Part shown: positions 17,204-57,362 of the stretch, in pieces | Layout: the number at the start of each line of letters is the position of its first letter | Numbering within the stretch: position 1 is the first letter of the stretch | DNA from: Puniceicoccaceae bacterium 5H | GTDB taxonomy: Bacteria; Verrucomicrobiota; Verrucomicrobiia; Opitutales; Oceanipulchritudinaceae | DNA: 64,000 nucleotides | NCBI GenBank assembly: GCA_009772895.1 | Contig: WOUP01000001.1 | Coordinates: 310,001 to 374,000 of the forward strand | Direction: 5' to 3' | Translations under genes and position numbers: made by a program | Notes under the pieces: model-generated | What the model saw: the letters and a program-made list of their open reading frames with translations, nothing else | Databases searched by the model: none | Told to the model about the DNA's origin: nothing

Positions 17204-19054
17204 CTACTCGACGGTTACCGACTTGGCTAAATTGCGGGGGCGGTCGACGTTGCAACCGCGGGCAACCGCTGCGTAGTAGGAGAAGAGCTGAAGGGGAATG
17301 GAGGCCAGGATCGGCATCAGAGATTCGCAGGTCTGCGGAATCGCGATCACGTCGATACCTTCCTGATCGCACAAGGGGCTGCCCTCGGTCGTGATGACAA
17401 TTACGGGGCCACCGCGCGCTTTCACCTCCTGAATATTGGAAGCGACCTTGTCGATCATCTCATCCTCCGGAGCGATAAAGAGGGAAGGGCAGGTCGGCGA
17501 CACCAAGGCCAAGGGCCCGTGCTTCATTTCCGCCGCCGGGTAACCCTCAGCGTGGATGTAGGAAATTTCCTTGAGCTTCAGGGCTCCTTCCAGGGCCAAG
17601 GGGAACATCATCTGCCGACCAAGGAAGAGAAAGTCGTTGTATTCAGCGTACTTTTTGGCCAACGCTTCAAGCTCCGAGGCTTTTTGCAGGACTTGCACGA
17701 TCTTGTCGGGCAATTCTTGCATGCCCTTCACCAGACGCATGCCTTCGCTCATACTGAGGTCGCGCAAGCGTCCAAGAAATACGCCGACCATCGTCGTGAG
17801 CAATACCTGCGAAGAGAAAGCTTTGGTGGATGCTACGCCGATCTCGGGGCCCACGTGCTGATAAATGCCACCGCCGGCCTCATGGGCGATCGTGGAGCCG
17901 ACGACGTTGGTGATGGCCAGGGTCTCGAAGCCCTTGCGCTTCATTTCCCGCAGCGCTTCGAGCGTGTCTGCGGTCTCCCCGCTCTGGCTGATCACGAACA
18001 CCAGCGTATTGTCCGGAATGGGCGCATTGCGATAACGCAGCTCACTTGCGTATTCCACATCCACAGGGATCCGGGCCAGCTTCTCGATAATATACTTGGC
18101 CAGCAGACAGGCGTGCCATGCCGTGCCGCAGCCCATGAACAGGATGCGATTGATCCGGCGCAGATCCTTGGCTTCGAGGTTCAGGCCGCCGAATTTCGTC
18201 GTGCTGTTGTCCGAGCTGAAACGGCCACGCATGCTGTTGCGCAACGCTTCCGGCTGCTCGAAGATTTCCTTGAGCATGAAGTGGGGGAAGTCGCCCCGCT
18301 CATACTCTTGATGTTCGGACTGCACTTCGCAGATCTCTGCGGCAACCCGTTCGTTATCGAGGTTGAAGATCTCGAAATCCTTGCCGGTGAGGCAGGCGAC
18401 CTGGCCATCGTCAAGGTAGACGATGTTATTGGTGCGTCCGCAGAAGGCCGCTGCATCGCTGGCCACCATGTTTTCACCATTACCGATCCCGAGCACCAGG
18501 GAGGACCCCAGTCGAGCGGTAATAATACGGCCGGGCTGATCTCCGCACATGACGGCAATGCCGTAGGAGCCCTTCACCTCACGCAGGGCCGCAAAAACAC
18601 TATGCAAGAATGCGTCTTCGTGACCCTCGGAGCGGAAATCTTCATAGTAGCTGGCGATCAGGTTGCAGAGAACTTCGGTGTCCGTCTCGGAGTGAAACGT
18701 CACCCCTGTTTGCTGGAGGCGGTTGCGCAGCGTCACGAAATTCTCGATCACACCGTTGTGAACCAGTGCAATGCGCCCGCAATTGGAAAGGTGCGGGTGC
18801 GAATTGCTCGGCGTCACCCCGCCGTGGGTGGCCCAGCGGGTATGGCTGATCCCGGAGTTGGCCATGACCTTTTCCTTCATGACCACTTGCCCGATATGTT
18901 CCGGGCTGCCCACGTCTTTAAAAATCTTGATGCCACTGCCGTTCATCAAGGCGTGGCCAGCGCTATCGTATCCGCGATAGGCCAACCGGTTGAGTCCTTC
19001 GACTAAAATTTTAGGAGCGGCGTCATCGCCCACGTATCCAACAATACCACACAT
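17204..19054 (-). CDS. glmS: Glutamine--fructose-6-phosphate aminotransferase (isomerizing)
   Basis: A 616-residue GlmS making glucosamine-6-phosphate from fructose-6-phosphate and glutamine, the entry to UDP-GlcNAc. The ATG at 19054 gives the required N-terminal nucleophile Cys after Met removal (MCGIVGYVG). The glutaminase domain shows HTRWATHGGVTPSNSHPH. Two SIS domains follow (MGCGTAWHACLLAKY, ISQSGETADTLEALR, IGVASTKAFSSQVL, EGALKLKEISYIHAEGYPA). The C-terminus NLAKSVTVE is canonical. It sits beside the polysaccharide locus, whose sugars derive from UDP-GlcNAc. Confidence 0.97.
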   Translation of the reverse strand: MCGIVGYVGDDAAPKILVEGLNRLAYRGYDSAGHALMNGSGIKIFKDVGSPEHIGQVVMKEKVMANSGISHTRWATHGGVTPSNSHPHLSNCGRIALVHNGVIENFVTLRNRLQQTGVTFHSETDTEVLCNLIASYYEDFRSEGHEDAFLHSVFAALREVKGSYGIAVMCGDQPGRIITARLGSSLVLGIGNGENMVASDAAAFCGRTNNIVYLDDGQVACLTGKDFEIFNLDNERVAAEICEVQSEHQEYERGDFPHFMLKEIFEQPEALRNSMRGRFSSDNSTTKFGGLNLEAKDLRRINRILFMGCGTAWHACLLAKYIIEKLARIPVDVEYASELRYRNAPIPDNTLVFVISQSGETADTLEALREMKRKGFETLAITNVVGSTIAHEAGGGIYQHVGPEIGVASTKAFSSQVLLTTMVGVFLGRLRDLSMSEGMRLVKGMQELPDKIVQVLQKASELEALAKKYAEYNDFLFLGRQMMFPLALEGALKLKEISYIHAEGYPAAEMKHGPLALVSPTCPSLFIAPEDEMIDKVASNIQEVKARGGPVIVITTEGSPLCDQEGIDVIAIPQTCESLMPILASIPLQLFSYYAAVARGCNVDRPRNLAKSVTVE

Positions 19055-19378
19055 AAGAGAAAGAGTTTGAGAGTGTGCCTCGACTAATACCATCCCTCGT
19101 GCCAATTGCGGCATGCGCCCATGAGACTATACCTTTTTTGGGTGGTATATCTTAGAATGAATGAAGAGTCTCCGGGATTAGAGTCGAGGGTTTGTCATGG
19201 TCTTCCTGCCGAATACATGCAGGGTGCACTCCAGGAGATTGCAAAGGGCGTGCACCCTGCAGCAATTCGCTATGTTTTAATAAGATAGGCCCGATTCACT
19301 CATACTTAAACCCTGTAATGGCAATCACTCAGGAGCTTCCCGCGCGTGGCTGGCATTGAATATGTTAAAGGGGCTGGC
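19055..19378. promoter_or_regulatory. Divergent intergenic region with a 12-bp perfect inverted repeat
   Basis: This gap separates leftward glmS from the rightward sugar-phosphotransferase gene and must contain both promoters. It holds a perfect inverted repeat, TGCAGGGTGCAC at 19218-19229 and GTGCACCCTGCA at 19250-19261, with a 20-base spacer. Each arm contains the smaller palindrome GTGCAC. This could be a pair of operator half-sites or an RNA stem. AT-rich sequence (TATGTTTTAATAAG) follows it. No known operator is recognised. Confidence 0.5.
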
Positions 19379-20839
19379 ATGCTCTCTACCTCGTCTCAGC
19401 CAACCAAAGCGCTGGATAAACCCTTCTCGTCACCCTTCGCGGCTCAAAGTGTCCCACAGCAGCAGCGACCCGTCCCCCAGTTTACAAGCGCTACCGCTAT
19501 TAGTACCGGCCTCGTTGCCTTCGACACGGTCCTCAGCCTTATCATGCTGAGCTGTGTTTTCTGGGCTTCCACGCATTACTGGTCGATCGCCCTCAGTCTG
19601 GGCACGGTCGTATCCACCATCTGTGGCACTTGGGTAACCTCGATGCTTGCAGGCGGCTATCGCCGTTCCAGTCTGCTTCGAGGCGACGGATGGCTGATGG
19701 ACTACTGGACGGCCGTCATTCTCTTTGTCGCCGCCTCGGGGGTGCTTTTTGCCTTCTCGATCGGGACCAACCTGCTCACCATCAAATCGGCCCTGCTGGT
19801 TCTGGTTTCCGTCTCGGCTACGACACTTTTAGGGATGGGAGCCCGCGCGATCATTGCTCGCTTTCTCAAGGAAGCCCTGGCACAACGCTATATCCTGGTG
19901 GTGGGGTCCGCCGCACACGCCGAACTCTTCTGGGAGGAAATGCAGGAAGAAGGCTGGCCCCAGCGCATCGTGCATTTGGACCTGGACGGATTTCGGGAAG
20001 ACAACGCCAATGGTAACCTGAGCGCGTCCAAGGAAGTTTGGTATCGCGCAAAGGAAGCGCACGTTGAATCGGTCGTTTTGCTCGATCCGGTGGAATCGGC
20101 CTCCCGCACCTTCAAAAATATGCTGTTGAGCTGGGACCGACACCGCATCCCAGTATTCGACCTGCACCGCTTTTACGCCAACTACTGGCAGAAAGTCCCA
20201 CCTTTCGCCCTGCATGCGGGCTGGGGTCAGGAAGAAGGCTTCCTGCTGCACCGCCAGCCGGTCTACCGCTGGGTGAAGCGTGCGATGGACGTGGTCGGCG
20301 CCGGTGTCTTGCTCTTTGTGCTTTCGCCACTGCTGCTGCTCGTAGCCGCTGCCGTGCGGCTGGAGAGCAAGGGACCCGCGATCTTCCGTCAAACGCGAGT
20401 CGGGCAGGGTGGCGATCCCTTCACGATTTTCAAGTTCCGCACCATGTGCGAAAGCGCCGACAAGGGTGATCGCTATACGCGGAGCAATGACAAGCGCATC
20501 ACACGTGTGGGAGCATTCCTGCGCAAGACCCGCCTGGATGAGCTGCCGCAACTCTTGAACGTGCTGCGTGGTGAGATGAGCCTGATCGGCCCCCGAGCAG
20601 AATGGGTGCGCTGCACGGAAGAATATGAAAAGACCATTCCCTATTACCACTGGCGGCACATCGTAAAGCCGGGCATCTCTGGCTGGGCTCAGGTCAACTA
20701 CGGTTACGGCGAAAACGAGGAGGATACGAAGGAAAAGCTCAAGCTGGACCTGTACTATGTGAAACACTACTCCCCCTGGCTTGATATCCGGATCATGCTC
20801 AAAACGTTATCGGTAGTGGTCACCGGAAAAGGCCAATAG
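19379..20839 (+). CDS. Polyprenyl glycosylphosphotransferase (initiating sugar transferase)
   Basis: A 486-residue membrane enzyme that transfers a sugar-1-phosphate from a UDP-sugar to undecaprenyl phosphate, starting the repeat unit. It has several N-terminal membrane helices, a central CoA-binding-like domain, one more helix ([20 protein letters not shown]), and the C-terminal catalytic domain. That domain shows [20 protein letters not shown], the [20 protein letters not shown] segment and [16 protein letters not shown]. An upstream in-frame GTG exists at 19346, but the ATG at 19379 has a good ribosome-binding site (AAAGGGG, 6 bases away). It is transcribed away from the main operon. Confidence 0.92.
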
Positions 20840-31628: not shown

Positions 31629-32471
31629 CTACGATTCCACCGCCTGCGGATCCAGCACCATATCGGCGACGCGCGTCACCGGCCCGATCATCGTCACGTT
31701 GAAGTCGTCATCGATCAGCAGTTCGAGCGTCCCGCCAGGCATGTGCACGGTGAAGTGGCCGTCCACCAGCCCCATCTTGCGGGCCACCGCGCCGGCCGCG
31801 CTGGAGCTACTGCCTGAGGCGAGCGTGTAGCCGGCACCACGCTCCCAGATTTCGATCTGGATGTTCTCGCGGTCGAGCACCTTGAGGAACTGGACATTGG
31901 TGCGATTGGGAAAGCGGGCGTCGGTTTCGAGGATCGGCCCCAGTTCGCGCGTCTGGCGTTCGGAGATCTCGTCCATCGGCAGCACACAGTGGGGGTTGCC
32001 GATCGTGGCGGCGTAGTAGCGGTATTCCTGGCCACCGAGCGTGATCGGTTCGTCCAATACTTCACGCTCAGAGCCCGCGACGGGAATTTTGGAGGAGTGG
32101 AAGCTGACCTGGCCCATCTCGACCTTGATCATGCCGTCGGCGCGAATCTGGCACTGGACGACACCACCCGCGGTCTCGACCGTGAAGTCCTGGCCGACCT
32201 CGACGCTTTCGATGTCGAGCAGGAAACGGCAGAAGATACGCAGACCGTTGCCGCTCTTTTCCGCTTCGCTACCGTCGGGGTTGAAAATGCGCAGGCCGAA
32301 GTCCGCTGCGTCCGCCGGCAGGGGGCCATACAGGATACCATCGGAGCCCAAGCCGAAGTTGCGGTGGCAGACGCGCTCGATAAACGGCACGGTCAGTTGC
32401 TCCGCATCGGCCTGCTCTTTCGGCAGCACCAGGTAATCATTGCCCAAGGCGTGGTATTTCGCGAACTGCAT
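31629..32471 (-). CDS. dapF: Diaminopimelate epimerase homologue lacking both catalytic cysteines
   Basis: A 280-residue two-lobed DapF-fold protein: FAKYHALGNDYLVL, CHRNFGLGSDGI, FNPDGSEAEKSGNGLRIF, TIGNPHCVLPMDEI and ERGAGYTLASGSSSSAAGAV all align with DapF. In standard enzymes Cys follows G-N-G-x-R (CGNGARC) and lies in ACGTGACA. Here those places hold Ile79 and Ser219; the codons were checked on the DNA. The only nearby thiol is Cys81, two residues off. It may be a divergent subfamily with altered chemistry or another racemase. dapA and dapB are elsewhere in the window (55.7-57.4 kb), so DAP synthesis is expected in this cell. Confidence 0.8.
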   Translation of the reverse strand: MQFAKYHALGNDYLVLPKEQADAEQLTVPFIERVCHRNFGLGSDGILYGPLPADAADFGLRIFNPDGSEAEKSGNGLRIFCRFLLDIESVEVGQDFTVETAGGVVQCQIRADGMIKVEMGQVSFHSSKIPVAGSEREVLDEPITLGGQEYRYYAATIGNPHCVLPMDEISERQTRELGPILETDARFPNRTNVQFLKVLDRENIQIEIWERGAGYTLASGSSSSAAGAVARKMGLVDGHFTVHMPGGTLELLIDDDFNVTMIGPVTRVADMVLDPQAVES

Positions 32472-32518: not shown

Positions 32519-33811
32519 TCAGGCCTCGTAGTCGCGGTATTTGTCCGCTTCGAGGTCGCCCTCTGCGTTGGCGACCACGCAGGTAACAGCAGCGTCGCCG
32601 GTCACGTTGACCGCGGTGCGCGTCATGTCCAGCAGCCGGTCCACCCCCAGGATGAACGCGACGGGTTCGAGCGGAAGGCCTACCTGCGTCAAAACGGCCC
32701 CCAGCGTGACGAGGCCCACGGCCGGAATCGCCGCCGTCCCGATCGAAGCCATGGTGGCCATGAGAATGATCGTGATGAACTGAGTGATGTGCAGGTCGAC
32801 CCCCACGTAGTTGGCCACAAAGACCGTGGCAACGCCCTGCATGATCGCCGTACCGTCCATATTGATCGTGGCCCCCAGGGGAATCGTGAACGAAGCCACC
32901 GAGTTTTTGACGCCCATGCGGTGCTCGAGTGTCTCCAGGGTGATGGGGATCGTCGCGCCGCTACTGGCCGTGGCAAAGGCGTTGAGCTGGGGCCGCCACA
33001 TCTTGACCATAAACGGGATCGGGTTGAGCCGCCCCAGTAGCGTTAACATCAGCGGATAGGTCACCAGCGCGTGCAGAATCAGCACTCCCAAGACGGTCAG
33101 AAAGTATTTGAGCAAGCCCTCGAAAGCATCGCCCCCGGTGGTGGCAAAGGTCCTTGCCACCAAGCCAAAAACTCCCACGGGGGCGAACCACATCACGATG
33201 ATGACCATGCGCATCACTACCTCATTGAGCGATTCGAACAGCGCACGTACCGGTTCGCCTTTGCTGCCGATCTGAACGATCGCGACGGCCACCACGATGG
33301 CAAAGATGATCACCTGGAGCATTTCGGCCGACGCCATCGCCTGCACGGGATTGTCCGGCACAACTTCGACAAAGACCGTCGTAAGCGGCTTGCCCTCGTG
33401 CCCTTCATACTGGGCGTCGCTGTCGCTGTGGAAGCTGGACCCGGGCTGTACCACAGAGGCGGCCGCGAGGGCCAGCGTGATGGCGATGGCAGTGGTCGCG
33501 ATATAGAGAACGAGCGTGCGCATGCTCATTCGTCCCAGTTTGCGAATGTCTTTCAGCGAAATGATGCCGCAGACGAGAGAGACGAACACGAGCGGAACCA
33601 CCAGCATCTTCAGCAGGCGCATGAAGATGTTGCCCACGACATAAAAGGCGCCTTCGACCAGATACTGCTGGATCCAGGCAACGTCGTTGCCCAGCCAGTT
33701 GATCAGCACACCGGTGAGGATGCCGACGAACATCGCCGCCAAAATGGCAACCGTCAAAAGCGTTTGAGACTTGGAAGCTTTATGGGGTGGGGCAGCAGAG
33801 TCGTCGGACAT
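32519..33811 (-). CDS. Dicarboxylate/amino acid:cation symporter (DAACS, GltP/DctA type)
   Basis: A 430-residue inner-membrane transporter with eight expected helices and two re-entrant loops. It has ATASSGATIPITLETLEHRM (HP1 serine-rich loop), SFTIPLGATINMDGTAIMQG (NMDGT cation-binding motif), and MTRTAVNVTGDAAVTCVVA near the end. It imports glutamate/aspartate or C4-dicarboxylates with Na+ or H+. The conserved Arg/Asp near the C-terminal helix (DMTRTAVNVTGD) favours acidic substrates. It is transcribed with the HAD gene 7 bases upstream. Confidence 0.92.
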   Translation of the reverse strand: MSDDSAAPPHKASKSQTLLTVAILAAMFVGILTGVLINWLGNDVAWIQQYLVEGAFYVVGNIFMRLLKMLVVPLVFVSLVCGIISLKDIRKLGRMSMRTLVLYIATTAIAITLALAAASVVQPGSSFHSDSDAQYEGHEGKPLTTVFVEVVPDNPVQAMASAEMLQVIIFAIVVAVAIVQIGSKGEPVRALFESLNEVVMRMVIIVMWFAPVGVFGLVARTFATTGGDAFEGLLKYFLTVLGVLILHALVTYPLMLTLLGRLNPIPFMVKMWRPQLNAFATASSGATIPITLETLEHRMGVKNSVASFTIPLGATINMDGTAIMQGVATVFVANYVGVDLHITQFITIILMATMASIGTAAIPAVGLVTLGAVLTQVGLPLEPVAFILGVDRLLDMTRTAVNVTGDAAVTCVVANAEGDLEADKYRDYEA

Positions 33812-55708: not shown

Positions 55709-56617
55709 ATGTCATCACAGGTTACGCCTTTTGCGGGTGTTTATACCGCATTGATCACCCCCTTCCGTGAAGGTAAGGTCGATTACCCAGAGCTCGAGCG
55801 TCAGCTGGAGCGTCAGATCCAAGCAGGCGTGCACGGCATTGTCGCAGTGGGCACGACAGGAGAGTCCCCCACCCTCGACACCTTCGAGCACCTTGCCGTG
55901 ATCGAGGCGACCGTGAAATTCGTGAACGGGCGCATCCCCGTCATCGCCGGTACCGGCGCCAACGCGACCTCTGAAGCCCTTTACCTGATTCGCGAGGCAG
56001 ACGCCCGCGGCGTGGACGCGCACCTGCAGGTGGCCCCCTACTACAACAAGCCGACTCAGGAGGGCCTCTTCCGACACTTCTCCGCGGTTGCCGAGTCTAC
56101 GGAAAAGCCGATCATGCTCTACTCGATCCCGGGCCGTTGTGGCATCGAGATCGGGATCGAAACCGTGCGCCGCCTGTCCGAAAACTTCGAGAACATGCGC
56201 TCGATCAAGGAAGCCGGCGGTGACGTCTCGCGTGTTTCGCAGCTGCGGCAGGCTTGCAATGGACGGATCACGATTCTTTCGGGCGATGACGGGCTGACGG
56301 TTCCATTTATGGCGGAAGGCGCTGCCGGCGTGGTTTCGGTCGCCTCCAACCTGCTGCCGGAAATCCTCGTCGACCTCGTTGCAAAGATGCAAAACGGAGA
56401 TCTCCCGGGCGTGCATGCGCTGCTGAAGCGCTACTACGCTCTGCTGACGGATCTCGTCTTCCTCGAAGGCAATCCGGTCACGATCAAGACCGCCATGTAT
56501 GAATCCGGCTTTCTCGCCGATGCCGAGGTGCGGCTGCCCATGGTTCCCATGAGCGAAGTCAACCTGCCCCGCCTGCGCGCGGCGCTGAAGGAAATCGGCC
56601 TTTCCACCCGTGAGTAG
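55709..56617 (+). CDS. dapA: 4-hydroxy-tetrahydrodipicolinate synthase
   Basis: A 302-residue DapA condensing pyruvate with aspartate semialdehyde. It has YTALITPFREGKVDYPELER, GTTGESPTLDTFEH, the active-site Tyr in YSIPGRCGIEI and the Schiff-base Lys in RSIKEAGGDV. It heads a rightward dapA-dapB-ruvA cluster. Confidence 0.96.
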   Translation: MSSQVTPFAGVYTALITPFREGKVDYPELERQLERQIQAGVHGIVAVGTTGESPTLDTFEHLAVIEATVKFVNGRIPVIAGTGANATSEALYLIREADARGVDAHLQVAPYYNKPTQEGLFRHFSAVAESTEKPIMLYSIPGRCGIEIGIETVRRLSENFENMRSIKEAGGDVSRVSQLRQACNGRITILSGDDGLTVPFMAEGAAGVVSVASNLLPEILVDLVAKMQNGDLPGVHALLKRYYALLTDLVFLEGNPVTIKTAMYESGFLADAEVRLPMVPMSEVNLPRLRAALKEIGLSTRE

Positions 56618-56621
56618 TCCC

Positions 56622-57362
56622 ATGAGCAAGCTTCCCGTCATGATTTATGGCAGCCGCGGCCGCATGGGCCGCGTGCTCTGCGATCTCGCTGCAAGCTGCG
56701 AGGCTGAAGTCGTTTCGACCGTCGACCAAAATGAAGGCGACCTCGCGAGCGGCATTCAGAAGGCTGCCGTCGCGATCGACTTCAGTTTCCATGCGGCCAC
56801 CGTCAAACTCCTCGACGCTGCGACCGCAGCCGGCAAGGCCGTGGTGATCGGCACGACGGGACATACTGCGGAAGAAAAGGAACGCATTCACGCCGCGGCG
56901 CAGCAGATCCCCGTCGTCTGGGCGGGAAACTATTCGGTGGGTGTGAACCTGCTCTTTTACCTGACCCGCAAGGCCGCCTCCATCCTGGGCGAAGATTATC
57001 AGCCCGAAGTGCTGGAGCTGCACCACCGCCACAAAAAGGACGCGCCTTCCGGCACGGCCGCCAACCTGGTAGACTTGGTGCGCGAGGCACGCGAACTGCC
57101 GGAGTCCGCAGTTGTGAACGGACGCGAAGGCATCACCGGAGAACGCCCGAACGACCAGATTGGCGTGCACGCCATTCGCGGAGGCCAGATCATTGGCGAG
57201 CACACCGTCTTCTTCATCGGTGAGCAGGACCGGATCGAGTTGACGCACCGAGCGCAGGATCGTGGCATCTTTGCGCGCGGCGCCCACCGTGCTGCTCGTT
57301 GGGCCAGCCAGCAGCAGCCGGGGCTCTATGACATGCGCGACGTCCTGGGACTCAAGGATTAG
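56622..57362 (+). CDS. dapB: 4-hydroxy-tetrahydrodipicolinate reductase
   Basis: A 246-residue DapB. It has VMIYGSRGRMGRVLCDLAAS (NAD(P)H binding, G-x-x-G-x-M-G form), VIGTTGHTAEEKERI, ELHHRHKKDAPSGTA with the catalytic His and Lys, and GERPNDQIGVHAIRGG. The ATG at 56622 is preferred; a GTG at 56610 overlapping dapA is possible. It acts directly after DapA in lysine/DAP synthesis. Confidence 0.96.
   Translation: MSKLPVMIYGSRGRMGRVLCDLAASCEAEVVSTVDQNEGDLASGIQKAAVAIDFSFHAATVKLLDAATAAGKAVVIGTTGHTAEEKERIHAAAQQIPVVWAGNYSVGVNLLFYLTRKAASILGEDYQPEVLELHHRHKKDAPSGTAANLVDLVREARELPESAVVNGREGITGERPNDQIGVHAIRGGQIIGEHTVFFIGEQDRIELTHRAQDRGIFARGAHRAARWASQQQPGLYDMRDVLGLKD

Follow-up and report, generated by a model that had tools for sequence, protein, structure and literature searches.

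A DapF subfamily with serine at both catalytic cysteine positions as the probable diaminopimelate epimerase of a verrucomicrobial bacterium

Introduction

Diaminopimelate (DAP) epimerase, DapF, turns DAP into the form that lysine and the cell wall require. Its thiol/thiolate pair is the model case of a two-base mechanism, and the exchange of cysteine for serine is the standard change by which such an enzyme is crippled. The known enzymes, including those of E. coli, P. aeruginosa, H. influenzae, Anabaena and Arabidopsis, carry a Cys/Cys pair. The same swap exists in laboratory mutants made to impair catalysis, namely H. influenzae DapF C73S (2q9h) and C217S (2q9j), HisR C67S and C209S, and CntK C72S, each of which alters a single site. 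Within the proline racemase superfamily (4HypE, t3HypD), which shares the DapF fold, active enzymes with serine in place of the first cysteine have been described; a Ser-Ser dyad is not mentioned in the accessible part of that paper (PMC4113996). The bifunctional DapF/glutamate racemase of the Chlamydia type (NF038284) likewise has the DapF fold and belongs to a PVC-related lineage that uses DapL.

In the Opitutae, DAP was long reported as absent by thin-layer chromatography and as low by GC/MS (PMC5303756). DAP has since been reported in Opitutus and Lacunisphaera, for which DapL and DapF are listed, with Opitutaceae levels about a tenth of that of E. coli and a stereochemistry that was not determined (Rast et al., PMC5303756).

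Here we describe a protein encoded in a 64,000-nucleotide stretch of DNA from Puniceicoccaceae bacterium 5H, hereafter the window, which is homologous to DapF, has the same predicted fold, lacks the catalytic cysteines and probably catalyzes the same reaction. The assessment draws on sequence, predicted fold, conservation across the clade, pathway context and phyletic displacement. No earlier description of such a Ser/Ser clade was found in the open literature searched.

Serines at both catalytic positions

The open reading frame is a real gene and codes for 280 amino acids. The protein scores 232.6 bits against TIGR00652 (NCBIfam name DapF; cut-off 114.65) over residues 1-271, making it a full-length DapF homologue, and PF01678 (175.4 bits) is the sole Pfam family matched. 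The original prediction that neither catalytic cysteine is present is plain on the DNA, although it misplaced one of the two positions. Alignments with solved DapFs and with E. coli DapF both replace the Cys73/Cys217 pair by Ser73/Ser219: Ser73 in EKSGNGLRI stands at Cys73 of the E. coli and H. influenzae motif QCGNGARC, and Ile79, which had been taken for the lost residue, corresponds to a conserved, non-catalytic Cys79. Ser219 had been assigned correctly. The relevant features are as follows.

31629..32471, minus strand: Ser/Ser DapF-like protein, 280 aa (TIGR00652, PF01678, AlphaFold model)
32253..32255, minus strand: Ser73, codon AGC, equivalent to catalytic Cys73 of E. coli and H. influenzae; precedes helix 74-86 in the model (alignment and DNA)
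32256..32258, minus strand: Lys72, codon AAG, invariant in the core clade (129/129) and found in none of the Cys/Cys DapFs (0/31; alignment)
32235..32237, minus strand: Ile79, aligned with non-catalytic Cys79 (alignment)
31815..31817, minus strand: Ser219, codon TCA, equivalent to E. coli catalytic Cys217; precedes helix 220-232 in the model (alignment and DNA)
31827..31829, minus strand: Tyr215, codon TAC, clade-specific, four residues N-terminal of Ser219 (alignment)
31806..31808, minus strand: Ser222, codon AGC, clade-specific, glycine in Cys/Cys DapFs (alignment)
32519..33811, minus strand (shared): sodium:dicarboxylate symporter, immediately upstream of the dapF-like gene

The symporter gene and the dapF-like gene are possibly co-transcribed; the linkage is not conserved, with no match to the symporter in the flanks of 80 relatives.

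Predicted fold and DAP-binding residues

The AlphaFold model of the window protein (pLDDT 95.3, pTM 0.90) has the two-domain DapF fold, with a DapF as its top match (Z 36.7, rmsd 1.7 over 270) and DapFs as the best solved-structure matches (Z 36.7 to 27.6). Ser73 and Ser219 are placed directly before the two helices listed above, in a DapF-like arrangement. The likeness to the five known DapFs named in the introduction extends over the full length (33-36% identity), the fold (Z 31-37), the DAP-binding residues and the pathway context, and it exceeds that to the histidine racemases CntK (Z 26, 19%) and HisR (Z 23.5, 17%), set against Z 33-37 and 34-36% identity for DapF. The proline racemase superfamily is more distant, with about 11-18% identity in structure alignments and proline-type substrates, and the window protein is not a member by sequence. 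Nor does it belong to NF038284, against which it reaches 66.1 bits at a cut-off of 350.

The residues that contact DAP have been listed for Anabaena DapF (PMC12039745), and the corresponding N64, N159, N192, E210 and R211 are retained, with S221 standing in for the hydroxyl of Thr226; the equivalents of E. coli Asn64, Asn157, Asn190, Glu208 and Arg209 are thus kept, as is Asn11. A notable difference is that Anabaena DapF has no basic residue close to the catalytic sulphurs (PMC12039745), whereas in the window protein Lys72 adjoins Ser73 in sequence.

A conserved and widely spread clade

Serine occupies both positions in 129 of 129 distinct core homologues and cysteine both in 31 of 31 more distant DapFs, with no intermediates in this set, which combines the best relatives with sequences from a phylum-wide survey and was collected by similarity to the window protein, so that intermediates may exist elsewhere. 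The double replacement of cysteine by serine is not due to chance. All of the best 80 relatives, from contigs of one genome per species, carry KSGNG and [AS]SG[ST]S; their labels are Verrucomicrobiota, Planctomycetota, Deltaproteobacteria (Desulfobacterota/Myxococcota), Chloroflexi, Armatimonadota and Cyanobacteria, although many are metagenome bins whose taxon labels may be wrong. In a tree built without the trait columns, the Ser/Ser and the Cys/Cys proteins each lie on one side of a branch, with one change each (SH-aLRT 75 and 93, not starred).

The view that all other DapF motifs are kept holds only roughly, since the clade has fixed differences at Y6, Y13, G49, P50, K72, I79, Q194, E207, Y215 and S222. 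Compared with the Cys/Cys DapFs, these include Lys72 (there Met or Gln), Ile79 (Cys), Gln194 (Glu, Asn or Gly), Glu207 (Arg in 31/31), Tyr215 (Glu) and Ser222 (Gly in 31/31). N11, N64, N159, N192, E210 and R211 are invariant within the Ser/Ser clade. Several members from reduced genomes of families f60 and f71 keep both serines and have isoleucine at position 72, among them three of f71 (L262, L264, L266) which also replace Arg78 by threonine, and one member has arginine for Tyr215. Lys72 is therefore not strictly required, which weakens its candidacy as an essential base. A displaced Cys81, proposed as a possible base, is ruled out as a shared one because relatives have S, A, C, T, F or V at this site.

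Several individual cases were also observed. A 1.0-Mb genome of the host's order encodes a Ser/Cys hybrid DapF-like protein (L267; G308:C7, about 18,500-19,900) with MSGNGVRIY and SCGSG and a very long branch. A broken second Ser/Ser dapF with an internal TAG (L142; G023:C19, about 90,530-90,889) lies ~4 kb from an intact copy. The cyanobacteria Westiellopsis (L135, L136, L137) and Aphanothece (L138, L139) hold one Ser/Ser copy and one or two Cys/Cys copies. Fragments aside, the Ser/Ser protein is the sole PF01678 protein in 33 of the 45 genomes first tested, and most of the others add a Cys/Cys paralogue.

Selection on the serines

Both families of serine codons are in use at both sites, with 70 AGY and 60 TCN at position 73 and 10 AGY and 120 TCN at position 219. 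A single-base path between AGY and TCN runs via cysteine or threonine, and the presence of both families at both sites points to selection that acts on serine itself, as judged from codon usage. Relative to an 88%-identical congener (G319), dN/dS is about 0.10 (0.08/0.83). A decayed gene or an artefact is ruled out by this value, the two codon families and the 129/129 serine pairs.

The pathway in the host genome

As originally predicted, dapA and dapB are present in the window, both above their profile cut-offs:

55709..56617, plus strand: dapA (TIGR00674, 320 bits)
56622..57362, plus strand: dapB (TIGR00036, 228.6 bits)

In the 98.6%-complete host genome, the suggestion of DapL combined with a separate DapF was borne out for DapL (577.7 bits) and not for the second enzyme, the window protein being the single PF01678 protein; meso-DAP dehydrogenase (Ddh) is absent as well. 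A LysA homologue reaches 275 bits, just below the cut-off of 298. Two full MurE homologues, L121 (G000:C2 63238-64626) and L122 (G000:C13 28751-30145), both have the DNPR motif, which goes with the use of meso-DAP; L122 has a sugar-transporter-like gene as its neighbour and is located outside the murF region. Because DapL yields LL-DAP, its presence does not remove the need for an epimerase, and the combination of DapL, MurE with DNPR and a LysA homologue in a genome where Ddh was not found makes the step from LL- to meso-DAP a required one. Among the known families, only the window protein qualifies as a candidate for this step. A strict coupling to DapL was not found in other hosts: of 62 genomes searched, 59 of which carry the Ser/Ser form, roughly half exceed the TIGR03542 cut-off.

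Three relatives' genes (L023, L034, L078) adjoin dapA and dapB on one strand, in the order dapB-dapA-dapF or dapF-dapA-dapB. No match to lysA was found in the neighbourhood of the relatives' Ser/Ser genes.

Displacement across the order

Displacement was assessed in 284 genomes of the host's order with a completeness of at least 90%. Wherever the match was weak, intermediate or missing, the genome was searched a second time with PF01678 and the residues were read from the sequences. The Ser/Ser form was assigned to 231 genomes by match strength, with residues read in the fetched subset, only some of the eight genomes with two matches read, and a few matches partial (G334, G503); 28 have a Cys/Cys DapF only, 24 have no DapF and one is Ser/Cys. 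Ddh occurs in 19 of the 284, namely in 11 of the 24 without any DapF and in 8 of the 231 with Ser/Ser (p 2e-8, Cys/Cys genomes left out). Taken together, a Cys/Cys DapF (28) or Ddh (11) is found in 39 of 53 genomes without the Ser/Ser protein and in 9 of 231 with it (Fisher p 1.6e-27); these p-values are too small, because the genomes are related and the Fisher test treats them as independent.

Presence and absence of the Ser/Ser protein both occur within the genera g145, g177 and g11. One single-contig genome that is 99% complete (G461) has Ddh and no DapF, while in two congeners, G125 and G529, Ddh and Ser/Ser occur together. Thirteen of the 284 genomes have neither Ser/Ser, a Cys/Cys DapF nor Ddh; seven of these measure 0.7-1.0 Mb and most of the others are fragmented bins. 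The exception is G336 of family f66, a single contig of 2.3 Mb (95% complete) with no PF01678 protein and no Ddh.

Discussion

We consider it probable that the window protein is the cell's LL-/meso-DAP epimerase and that it belongs to a DapF subfamily in which serine hydroxyls have replaced both catalytic thiols. Of the possibilities raised originally, a divergent epimerase with different acid/base groups is the best supported, and a Ser/Ser swap common to a large, widely spread clade suggests the same reaction with a different acid/base pair. DAP would be bound as in other DapFs, and Ser73 and Ser219, each at the start of one of the two central helices, would serve as the two bases of a 1,1-proton transfer, removing and returning the alpha-proton. 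Lys72 and Tyr215, which are specific to the clade and neighbour the serines in sequence, may make the alkoxide less costly to form. Such an enzyme would be expected to be insensitive to thiol reagents and oxidation, and perhaps to turn over more slowly. The wider proposition is a natural cofactor-independent amino-acid epimerase in which a Ser/Ser pair assisted by Lys and Tyr, instead of the thiol/thiolate pair, deprotonates an alpha-carbon; it would be fixed throughout a clade of several phyla and provide most of its hosts with their only meso-DAP. This is put forward tentatively, at somewhat below an even chance.

Previous work bears on serine catalysis in both directions. The severe impairment of HisR C67S and C209S (PMC11602996) counts against it, as does the use of the Cys-to-Ser change to hinder catalysis in DapF (PMC12039745), whereas the catalytic serines of Ser-Cys 4HypE and Ser-Thr t3HypD (PMC4113996) count in its favour. 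In contrast to the laboratory mutants, the clade has serine naturally at both sites, conserves it and carries additional specific residues; one idea is that single mutants may fail for want of these co-evolved residues.

Could an epimerase of this kind use bases other than the two serines, for example Lys72 with Tyr215, or one serine paired with water or some other group on the opposite face? Lys72 and Tyr215 are invariant across the core clade and missing from Cys/Cys DapFs, and lysine is the base in some other racemase families, such as Lys166 of mandelate racemase. We nevertheless regard this as unlikely, since the serines sit at the exact thiol positions and helix ends and are the constant feature, whereas Lys72 gives way to isoleucine in several Ser/Ser members from reduced genomes and Tyr215 to arginine in one. 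It appears distinctly unlikely that the protein acts on DAP or a similar amino acid in another way, whether by racemization or by the kind of elimination known from Ser-Thr t3HypD, with meso-DAP made by a separate enzyme. In its favour, some proline racemase superfamily members with a changed Cys pair also differ in their chemistry (PMC4113996), and the DapF fold also serves histidine and O-ureidoserine racemases. Genomes that carry both forms, cyanobacteria among them, also speak for this alternative and against the main reading, and the thirteen genomes lacking Ser/Ser, Cys/Cys DapF and Ddh alike likewise count against the latter. The retained DAP-binding residues, the adjacency to dapA and dapB in three genomes, the loss or replacement that follows Ddh and Cys/Cys DapF, and the lack of another DapF-family epimerase candidate in most genomes argue the other way, and the different racemase suggested originally is disfavoured on the same grounds.

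That the protein is a pseudoenzyme which binds or regulates a partner is highly improbable: both bases are lost and E. coli DapF forms a solved complex with RppH (PDB 6d13), but serine itself has been held through two codon families along with the active-site residues, and displacement by Ddh, an unrelated enzyme, is unexpected for a regulator. Nothing was found in favour of sequencing error, contamination or a dying gene. The recurrence of the same residues in 129 distinct, independently assembled proteins, some of them from single-contig genomes, and the low dN/dS leave this reading a negligible chance.

Returning to the Ser/Ser epimerase, a link between a slower enzyme and the low DAP of the Opitutae is speculative. 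If the clade is active, these bacteria should resist cysteine-directed DapF inhibitors such as aziridino-DAP and iodoacetamide, and thiol oxidation should leave the step unaffected. A comparison of Ser/Ser with Cys/Cys enzymes would then reveal what lets a hydroxyl work, and the accepted thiol requirement of this enzyme class would be wrong in general.
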